Shown: one piece after another, positions 1,382-4,647 of the stretch
Layout of the letters: the number at the start of each line of letters is the position of its first letter
How positions within the stretch are numbered: position 1 is the stretch's first letter
IMG/VR virus record: IMGVR_UViG_3300021378_000056
Location: 1 to 42,158 of that record
From: a virus
Direction: 5' to 3' (one strand)
DNA: 42,158 bases
Made by a program: the position numbers and the translations under genes
Notes under the pieces: model-generated
Databases searched by the model: none
Seen by the model: only the letters and a program-made list of their open reading frames with translations
Told to the model about the DNA's origin: nothing

Positions 1382-1993
1382 CTATTTAATTAACTCTCTA
1401 ATATGAATCACGTCATTGTCACTATAGCATACCATACAATCTTGACATTTACCATGGCAATTTATCTCAGCTTTGGTTGGATTTTCTTTGCTATATACAC
1501 TGAATATTTTAATAAAATGCTTAGGTAGTTTTATGTCTTTGCTATCAACTTTAGCGTTGGAAAAAATCAATTTAAAATTAGCAGGTAAACTTCTTTTCGC
1601 TAATGTTTTATTAATGATGTCCTTACGCTTTGTCCATAGCACGAAACGGGTGCGCGGATTATCCAAGGCAATATTAATAAAGTTAATCATATGAGTTTCA
1701 TTAATCAATTCACCTGTACTATGAAACCTAAAAGCCAAGTCATTAATCCGAGGCAATTCATGACGCTCAAGTATACGACTGGCTAGTATATCGCTATTCT
1801 TTTGGATGTTTAAGCGCAAACCTTTATAAGCTTTTTCCATATTGGCGGCGTAACACTTTTTACAGATACTGTCCTGCTCACGCATCTTTTGGCAAAATGT
1901 ATTTTTTTCTACACTTGTGTTAAGGCTACGAAAACCTGCTAATTTACCTGATTGATTGTGGTTGGTTACTTTTAAGAATTCAATAGTTTGCAT
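1382..1993 (-). CDS. GP88-like cysteine-rich phage protein, 203 aa
   Basis: This is the first gene behind the early sigma-70-like promoter. It resembles the phage GP88 family: an N-terminal NHNQSGK segment, a first cysteine group (Cys34, Cys44, Cys47), a central FRFHSTGE motif at residues 88-95, an RFVLWTKR segment and a second cysteine group (Cys179, Cys183, Cys186, Cys189). The cysteines suggest a metal or iron-sulphur site. The biochemical role of this family is not known to me. A CTGGAG ribosome site supports the start at 1993. Its position suggests expression in the first minutes of infection. Confidence 0.65.
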   Translation of the reverse strand: MQTIEFLKVTNHNQSGKLAGFRSLNTSVEKNTFCQKMREQDSICKKCYAANMEKAYKGLRLNIQKNSDILASRILERHELPRINDLAFRFHSTGELINETHMINFINIALDNPRTRFVLWTKRKDIINKTLAKRSLPANFKLIFSNAKVDSKDIKLPKHFIKIFSVYSKENPTKAEINCHGKCQDCMVCYSDNDVIHIRELIK

Positions 1994-2415: not shown

Positions 2416-2496
2416 ACTAAAGGAGTCGATGGGCTACGGGGGGCTGTCGCTGAGAATCACATGATGATACCCACTCAGATTTTTTTAGTATTTTTT

Positions 2497-2526
2497 AGGA
2501 AGCCCTAAGTAATCCTAGAGCCTCCT
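2497..2526 (-). promoter_or_regulatory. 13-bp RNA hairpin just behind pqqA
   Basis: Nine bases after the pqqA stop, the minus-strand RNA can form a 13-bp stem with an ATTA loop. Three of the pairs are G-U on the minus-strand RNA but would be A-C mismatches on the plus-strand RNA, so the structure is suited to the minus transcript. It is followed by A-rich, not U-rich, sequence, so it is probably a processing or stability element and not a terminator. Confidence 0.45.
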
Positions 2527-2535
2527 AGCTAATGC

Positions 2536-2607
2536 TTACTTGTTCATTACGTACATTGTAACTTCAAAGCCAAAACGCATTTCAGTAGCTGCTGGTGATG
2601 TCCACAT
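2536..2607 (-). CDS. pqqA: PqqA-like PQQ precursor peptide, 23 aa
   Basis: A 23-codon gene starts at 2607, with GGAG seven bases before the ATG, and stops at 2536. The peptide has the PqqA signature: Met1-Trp2, Pro5-Ala6, Arg11, Gly13, then Glu15-Val-Thr-Met-Tyr19, and Asn22 before a basic last residue. Length and the positions of Glu15 and Tyr19 equal those of the gammaproteobacterial PqqA I remember (Klebsiella, 23 aa). In that pathway the radical-SAM enzyme PqqE, with PqqD, joins these Glu and Tyr residues, and PqqB, PqqC and proteases finish pyrroloquinoline quinone. No pqqB-E gene is in the window, so host enzymes would be needed. It lies about 300 bases downstream of the third phage promoter, so it is probably expressed late. 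Small size would hide it from normal gene callers. Confidence 0.85.
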   Translation of the reverse strand: MWTSPAATEMRFGFEVTMYVMNK

Positions 2608-2826
2608 AGTATTTCTCCATATATTAAAATCATACAAGGTCTAGCTTGAGTCATCGAAATGATTACAGTTGACTAGAGAGTACGTAGTTGTCATCGAGAC
2701 TGCGTAAAGATTAAACATAAAACCTCGATGTAGAACCTACAGAAAACCTCGATATAAGATTTAAGGTAGGGGTAGTAGTAGTTAGTCTTTAAGACTGCCT
2801 ACGTAAAACCTAAAAGCAAAAGTGTT

Positions 2827-2870
2827 CTTAGAGTATACTTAGAGTATACTTAGAGTATACTTAAAGAATC
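2827..2870. repeat. 11-bp iterons (three exact copies plus one variant)
   Basis: CTTAGAGTATA occurs three times head to tail (2827-2859), followed by the variant CTTAAAGAATC (2860-2870) and a partial TTAAAGAG. The period is about one DNA turn. On the minus strand the unit reads AAGTATACTCT, close to AAGTATTCTTT at 36.0-36.1 kb. The array lies 30-80 bases inside the transcript of the third phage promoter. A role in replication initiation or end formation is possible. Confidence 0.7.
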
Positions 2871-2952: not shown

Positions 2953-4647
2953 CTAATTAAAAGCTCTAATTCTTGATAAACTAGGCTTACTATTATGTTT
3001 TTTTTGCATACTCCTAAAGATATTAGCTCGTCTTTTAAGCTCATCTTCAATTTTCTTCTTCTTATAGATGTCCAAAGCATCATCAGAGTCCTGCTTTAAG
3101 ATACCATAGTCATTCCAAAACTGAACACCCATAGCCAATACATCAAGTCTATCGTCATGCACCAAAGCACCTCTATCATAAGTTATATGGCTTAGCTGAT
3201 AGATTAGGGAATAATAGATATTCTTAGGCTCAACTAGAGCAAACTCTACATCTTTCTTAATAGCACTATAGTCAAAGACTAGTCGATGCTGGTTCATCAA
3301 AGGTTCTAGAGTATCAATAATCCTCTTTTCCTTCTGAATATTGTTACGTATCTCTTCAGTAGCAACAGGATAGATAGCATTAAGCACAGGAGTTAGTAAG
3401 CTAGTAAACATACCATCACCAAAGTTACTCTCAACTACTACCTTATTGACTTTGTATTCCTGAGCTATCTGACTAAGCTTCACAAGGTTAGCTTCATCAT
3501 AACCACCTCGTAATCCACCAAATGCTGGTACAAATACTTTACCTAGTAGATGATTGACTACACACCACCCCATCTCATCCGTACCTCGACCACTAGGGTC
3601 AATGGCTAAGATACTACCTTCATAGTTACCATAGGACTCCTGTAAGCTAGGTCTCTGCAGCGTATCTCCAGTGAACCCTACGTTGGGTATGTCTTTAATA
3701 CTATCGTGGCTCTGAGAACTCCACATGAGCTTTGTAGGGGCTTGTTCAGGGGATAGGTCAGTAACAATTAAGTCACGTGTCTTTAAAGGATACTTTTCAG
3801 CATCACTTAATGTAGTATCAAGCATAAACTGTAGCTTAAAACCACTACGACCATAACTTAATTCCCTCTGATATAAGTCTTCATCTGAGAATCTTTCGTC
3901 AATAGACTTGTTTACAAGGGCGGGGTTGTTGTTGATGTCCTGTACGATGTAATCAGCTAGACAGCCTTGGTAACTCTCAATGTTATCAGGGTACTTAGCT
4001 GGGTAAATCCTAGTTACATAACCCTTATCTCTAAGGCGTGTATAGATTGACTCAGAAGTCTGAGGTGTACCTAGTACAAGTATCTGAGAGTTCTCAGAAG
4101 TCTGAAGGATAGCTTCGTATTCTGCCACTTGATTGAGTAAGTCTTGCCTACGTTTCTCAGTAGCACTATTGTTTTGTCCCTCAACGTCATCAGATATTAG
4201 TAAACTAGCACGATTACCCTGTAGCTGAGATGTAATACCTAAAGCTTTAACGCTAGGCTGAACCGATACCTCACAACCATTTACATCAAATGATATAACT
4301 GAGCTACGCTGGTCAGCTCTCGGAATCAAATGCTCCAAGATAGGCATAGTATCAATTAGTTTTCTAATAAAGATAGCAATGTTATCTGAGTGTGCACCTG
4401 ATTGTGAGATGATTAATATCTTTTCATTAGGATTACGTAGTAGTCGCCATGCTACGTAGGCTCCTGTAATCCAAGTTTTACCAATACCACGTAATGCTTC
4501 AAGCTGAGACCTTTTGTGTCCCTCTTGTAAGTAGTCTGCAATGTAATACTGCATTCGAGTTGGTGGTGGTAAACGTAGGTGCAACCAAGTATACTTAAGG
4601 AATACCTTAAAGTCTTGGATACAAGCCTTAGTTTCTTGTTGATTCAT
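2953..4647 (-). CDS. terL: Terminase large subunit, 564 aa
   Basis: ATPase-nuclease motor that packages DNA through the portal and cuts concatemers. The N-terminal ATPase has a Walker A segment LRGIGKT near residue 55 and a Walker B-like LLISDD near residue 150. The C-terminal nuclease shows acidic motifs AIDPSGRGTD, VVVESNFGDG and HDDRLDVLAMG. Length is close to T7 gp19 (586 aa). The start has an AAAGGA ribosome site. It is the last large gene of the virion unit, followed by a phage promoter and the suspected genome ends. Confidence 0.95.
   Translation of the reverse strand: MNQQETKACIQDFKVFLKYTWLHLRLPPPTRMQYYIADYLQEGHKRSQLEALRGIGKTWITGAYVAWRLLRNPNEKILIISQSGAHSDNIAIFIRKLIDTMPILEHLIPRADQRSSVISFDVNGCEVSVQPSVKALGITSQLQGNRASLLISDDVEGQNNSATEKRRQDLLNQVAEYEAILQTSENSQILVLGTPQTSESIYTRLRDKGYVTRIYPAKYPDNIESYQGCLADYIVQDINNNPALVNKSIDERFSDEDLYQRELSYGRSGFKLQFMLDTTLSDAEKYPLKTRDLIVTDLSPEQAPTKLMWSSQSHDSIKDIPNVGFTGDTLQRPSLQESYGNYEGSILAIDPSGRGTDEMGWCVVNHLLGKVFVPAFGGLRGGYDEANLVKLSQIAQEYKVNKVVVESNFGDGMFTSLLTPVLNAIYPVATEEIRNNIQKEKRIIDTLEPLMNQHRLVFDYSAIKKDVEFALVEPKNIYYSLIYQLSHITYDRGALVHDDRLDVLAMGVQFWNDYGILKQDSDDALDIYKKKKIEDELKRRANIFRSMQKKHNSKPSLSRIRAFN

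Follow-up and report, generated by a model that had tools for sequence, protein, structure and literature searches.

A 23-codon pqqA gene in a T7-like phage genome and its recurrence in phages of Methylophilales

We analyzed a 42,158-nucleotide phage sequence (IMG/VR record IMGVR_UViG_3300021378_000056, hereafter "the window") and confirmed that it contains a real pqqA gene, far above chance expectation. The gene (positions 2536..2607, minus strand) encodes the 23-amino-acid PqqA precursor peptide MWTSPAATEMRFGFEVTMYVMNK, followed by a stop codon, and was identified from two family models, its identity to pqqA of Methylotenera, and related copies in other phages. We consider it likely that this is a functional gene of host origin that would supply PqqA to the PQQ enzymes of the host during infection. 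We also lean, with less assurance, toward a broader view: that phages of Methylophilaceae have pqqA as a recurrent signature gene, that unrelated tailed lineages acquired it independently, that it was overlooked because 23 codons is below the usual limits of gene callers, and that it supplies only the substrate and uses the enzymes of the host.

The initial annotation had proposed a PqqA peptide at this location, and re-reading the sequence gave exactly the same coordinates, strand, number of codons, and GGAG site. All of the residues that it listed are found in the translation (Trp2, Pro5-Ala6, Arg11, Gly13, Glu15-Val-Thr-Met-Tyr19, and Asn22). The E-x3-Y spacing corresponds to Glu15 and Tyr19, which are the residues that become PQQ. 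The putative ribosome binding region, with a Shine-Dalgarno-like motif, lies 5' of the start codon (2612..2619, minus strand, limits approximate); the GGAG is arranged as TATATGGAGAAATACT-ATG, and the letters ahead of the ATG are TGGAGAAATACT. The peptide exceeds the curated cut-offs of both PF08042 (37.9 bits, E = 1.7e-9, cut-off of 21.1) and TIGR02107 (34.4 bits, E = 1.4e-8, cut-off of 20). A loose regular expression for PqqA had no matches in 200 random windows with the same dinucleotide frequencies as the window, and a search of solved structures with the peptide found no match. Because both models match, none of the 200 random windows does, and viral copies conserve the protein while synonymous sites vary freely (see below), the match is beyond chance. 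The reading frame is short and a strong hairpin lies behind it, as might be expected of a chance frame or of a sequence that acts as RNA instead of peptide, but given the scores from both models and synonymous sites that are near saturation while the protein is unchanged, we give that explanation almost no weight.

The window is the genome of a T7-like phage (a 42-kb record) and encodes a T7-type TerL, head-tail connector, capsid, nozzle, RNA polymerase, primase/helicase, ribonucleotide reductase, and PhoH. Among named phages, Lauvirus lau218 is the nearest (55% identity for the terminase and 33% for the RNA polymerase), followed by marine roseophages and pelagiphages. The upstream neighbor of pqqA is the gene for the large terminase subunit (terL; 2953..4647, minus strand; PF22530 and phrog_38), and pqqA begins 346 nt downstream of it, so the earlier description of pqqA as lying behind the large terminase gene is accurate. 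Just 3' of the pqqA stop codon is a strong RNA hairpin (2496..2527, minus strand, limits approximate; -21.3 kcal/mol, z = -2.97) that has about 14 base pairs, G-U pairs among them in several places, and no U-run behind it; it is possibly a 3' end or a stability element. The downstream edge of the pqqA insertion is marked by the element CTAAAAAATACTAAAAAAATCTGAGTGGGTATCATCA (2460..2499, minus strand, limits approximate), which follows terL and is conserved in relatives: it is present in the window and in the related records L278, L279, L280, L302, and L304, with a diverged version in L291. This element might mark a genome end or act in packaging or as a promoter. Tandem repeats of TATACTCTAAG also follow terL (2827-2859, minus strand), and similar repeats are found in the relatives. 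Elsewhere in the window, 1382-1993 (minus strand) encodes a GP88 family protein (PF17338) with several cysteine residues. A leader hairpin that seemed to covary between the window and L279 was dropped, as its folding z-scores were around zero.

We used the terminase to find 28 IMG/VR records that are related to the window. The contig of L277 (97% terminase identity) ends inside pqqA, L278 (91%) has two copies in tandem, both of them intact and each with a Shine-Dalgarno-like site, and L279 (85%) has one copy. In the remaining relatives (61-84%), which include four records of 43-44 kb, there was no match to PF08042 anywhere in the record. Among these relatives, the ones whose sequence we read (L280, L302, L304, and, in a diverged form, L291) contain the element that follows terL without pqqA. 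As pqqA is present in the close relatives and absent from the corresponding site in the more distant ones, its arrival in this lineage was probably rather recent. The tandem pair in L278 (6052-6256) also follows terL, and the two copies differ at synonymous codons; the pair could have arisen by duplication or by a second capture.

The window's reading frame is identical to pqqA from Methylotenera at 70 of 72 nucleotides, and the same count of differences (2 of 72) holds for Methylotenera oryzisoli and for other Methylophilaceae. Given this match, the gene was probably acquired recently from Methylophilaceae, and we infer from this 72-nt gene that the host of the phage belongs to the same group. 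As a check on the host, we compared the window's metallophosphoesterase to 11 host genomes and found no match.

To find pqqA in other phages, as the initial annotation had suggested, we compared the peptide to 50,697 phage records with tblastn. Matches were found in Methylophilaceae phage P19250A, in the Methylophilales phages MEP301, Venkman, MEP401, MEP402, and four Melnitz isolates, and in one Manatee Spring podovirus. The cultured Methylophilales phages with pqqA represent five lineages besides that of the window. Most of these phage records have no annotated feature at pqqA; Melnitz-1 and the Manatee Spring record have a "hypothetical protein" that overlaps it on the opposite strand. MEP431-434, HIM624-A, phiHIMB624-A, and Venkman EXVC038S, whose inclusion in the collection is uncertain, were not among the matches. 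The window, MEP301, P19250A, and MEP402 have terminases that are unrelated or only distantly related to each other, so phages likely acquired pqqA independently several times. The other tblastn matches were two Acinetobacter "phage" contigs and one match at E = 10. We read one of these contigs, Acinetobacter "phage" MD-2021a (L276, CAKLQF020000010.1), and excluded it because it contains a bacterial pqqABCDE operon; it is either mislabelled or contaminated.

In IMG/VR, two pattern scans gave at least 120 matches each, and pqqA is present, mostly unannotated, in more than 120 contigs. All of the copies that we read among the matches listed from these scans encode a full PqqA peptide. Overall, 97 of 151 viral loci (including the window) have at least two open reading frames in common with cultured Methylophilales phages or with the Manatee Spring podovirus, and none of the 151 was classified as resembling the surroundings of pqqA in hosts. 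One record with both pqqA and methanol dehydrogenase (L043/G016; L467, IMGVR_UViG_3300025120_009955), a locus that had been left unassigned, was not counted as evidence: the genes on its flanks encode formate dehydrogenase and a SoxYZ carrier of the quinoprotein-associated type, and the record looks like host chromosome, which calls for caution when a methanol dehydrogenase is claimed to be viral. Given this case, a few of the IMG/VR records may be bacterial. Among the other loci, the open reading frames of L023 match phage P19250A as well as a contig from a bacterial genome bin, and the locus may reflect a P19250A-like phage or provirus in that bin. L123 (IMGVR_UViG_3300023174_000036) is a very large viral record (356 kb) with pqqA. 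L465 and L466 encode a Methylobacterium-type PqqA (MKWSAPIVQEVCVGMEVTSY...); these may be bacterial contigs, or the trait may be shared by phages of other hosts.

The distribution of pqqA is patchy. Counting only long records (most contigs are too short), pqqA is present in one of seven MEP402-like records and in three of four Venkman-like records. We do not claim that pqqA is universal among Methylophilales phages. Instead, as the more distant relatives of the window lack it and just one of the seven MEP402-like contigs has it, the comparison indicates that pqqA is dispensable for some phages or is tied to the host.

To measure selection, we used 108 distinct viral reading frames and considered codons 15-23, which the search pattern had left unforced. 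At these codons, pS was 0.69 and pN was 0.064, so viral pqqA is under strong purifying selection. Glu15, Thr17, and Tyr19 were invariant across the 108 sequences, and the other changes in this region were mostly conservative. The initial annotation had named a match to the family models, retention of Glu15 and Tyr19, and purifying selection as checks on its claim of a phage-encoded PqqA, and the claim held up in all three respects. Selection also bears on whether pqqA could be a passive remnant, that is, a recently transferred fragment of host DNA with no function in the phage. The window's copy differs from Methylotenera copies by just two nucleotides and so may be young. However, the viral copies as a group are under selection, the gene recurs across unrelated phage lineages, and both copies in the two-copy relative are intact, and we find a passive remnant very unlikely. 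As would be expected of an auxiliary metabolic gene, pqqA is a host-derived metabolic gene that lies within a real phage genome and is maintained in phages by selection.

In the flanking sequence, a Shine-Dalgarno-like motif is present in all 121 of the viral leaders tested (versus 13.5 expected), 127 of 134 viral copies are intergenic, and 47 copies are antisense to both neighbors. Terminator-like hairpins are found 3' of 60 of 140 viral copies (versus 3.4 expected) and 109 of 127 bacterial copies (versus 5.0 expected). As judged from these features and from selection, the pattern is that of a stand-alone protein gene. Sigma-70 promoters upstream of pqqA were no more frequent than in shuffled sequences (80 found versus 80.8 expected), and we claim no promoter.

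The initial annotation had offered two mechanisms: that the peptide adds to the supply of precursor, or that it is a decoy that occupies PqqD and PqqE of the host. A decoy would lower or divert PQQ synthesis and slow the metabolism of the host. Any PqqA is expected to bind PqqD and PqqE, and phages are known to encode peptides that target the host. But a decoy could lose or alter the cross-linked residues, yet Glu15 and Tyr19 are invariant in the 108 distinct viral copies; and a decoy could diverge from the host peptide, yet the most frequent viral peptides are the same as those of hosts. As viral PqqA fully retains both the residues that are cross-linked and its host-like sequence, supply is favored on sequence grounds, and we view a decoy as improbable.

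If the peptide is supplied as substrate, then the phage would need only this gene. One PqqA is consumed for each PQQ that is made, so a phage that provides the substrate would not need to encode the enzymes. Indeed, PqqE was not found above the cut-off in any of 40 viral records, and the viral flanks that we read contain no homologs of pqqBCDE from Acinetobacter. Among 16 Methylophilaceae genomes, we found 1-12 copies of pqqA in each, and 15 of the genomes encode PqqE (one copy in 14 and two copies in the remaining one); this imbalance in copy number has been reported before (PMC4109929). PQQ is reported to increase in Gluconobacter when pqqA is overexpressed on its own (Wang 2016, as cited in PMC7936290). 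PqqE makes the Glu-Tyr cross-link within PqqA (PMC9851590), and the top transcript of OM43 bacteria is xoxF, which encodes the methanol dehydrogenase XoxF (PMC5120137).

We propose that a T7-like phage took pqqA from a Methylophilaceae (Methylotenera-type) host and has retained it as a small gene that stands alone, with terL on one side and a conserved non-coding element on the other. In infected cells, the phage gene would provide extra PqqA peptide, host PqqD and PqqE would cross-link its Glu15 and Tyr19, and PQQ would then be completed by peptidases of the host together with PqqB and PqqC. The phage would thus add to the dosage of a consumable substrate while borrowing the PQQ enzymes of the host, and the added PQQ might keep the very abundant XoxF charged and sustain methanol oxidation. 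Within this explanation, the expression and processing of the peptide, the effect on PQQ, and the benefit to the phage are all predictions from sequence. The effect of an extra phage copy may be modest because the hosts already carry several copies of pqqA. A related possibility is that the phage gene replaces host pqqA expression that is lost during infection, so that PQQ is kept level and not raised. A stand-alone gene with its own Shine-Dalgarno site and, often, a terminator-like structure would suit this role, and psbA in cyanophages is an analog. At the sequence level, replacement would look the same as a boost in PQQ; we regard it as possible, though not as the expected outcome. Our preferred explanation is still that the phage supplies PqqA to the PQQ enzymes of its host.

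These results suggest that, in bacteria that abound in fresh and coastal waters, the key step in oxidizing methanol is supported by their viruses by means of a peptide rather than an enzyme. They also illustrate that a recurrent metabolic gene of phages can stay unannotated because it is just 23 codons long. In metagenomes, pqqA could serve as a simple marker of the host for phages of methylotrophs.

Phage-encoded PqqA was already known; its breadth and the missing annotation appear to be new. The initial annotation had cautioned that pqqA might have been noted in phages of marine methylotrophs: there is indeed an earlier report, from Lake Baikal (PMC7678222), and the "marine" part is not supported for the window's phage, whose nearest pqqA copies are in Methylotenera. 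A 2026 reservoir study also lists virus-encoded pqqA (PMC13188868). In the main text of open-access papers, we found no report of the breadth of pqqA across methylophages. The main texts of the papers on MEP301, MEP401/402, and Venkman do not mention pqqA, and the main text of the Melnitz paper names PQQ solely as a component of the medium.

Compared to known systems, the window's gene resembles pqqA of Methylophilaceae (PF08042, TIGR02107) in its length, core residues, E-x3-Y motif, Shine-Dalgarno site, and organization as a stand-alone gene. Unlike those genes, it is part of a phage genome, where it follows terL at a distance of 346 nt, and its hairpin lacks the U-run that follows many host copies. 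Lauvirus lau218, the nearest named relative, is a podophage without a match to PqqA. The peptides of P19250A, MEP301, Venkman, MEP401/402, and Melnitz, which are phages of OM43 or LD28 bacteria, are 73-96% identical to the window's and are mostly encoded between annotated genes, but these phages belong to other lineages and carry the gene at other positions. Finally, the Lake Baikal virus VP_266, described in 2020, is a predicted Methylophilaceae virus whose pqqA was proposed to support methanol oxidation (PMC7678222), and the window's phage is similar in that it carries pqqA and probably infects Methylophilaceae. VP_266 is a T4-type virus that encodes methanol dehydrogenase as well (PMC7678222), whereas the window's phage is T7-like and pqqA is the sole PQQ-linked gene that we found among the window genes examined.
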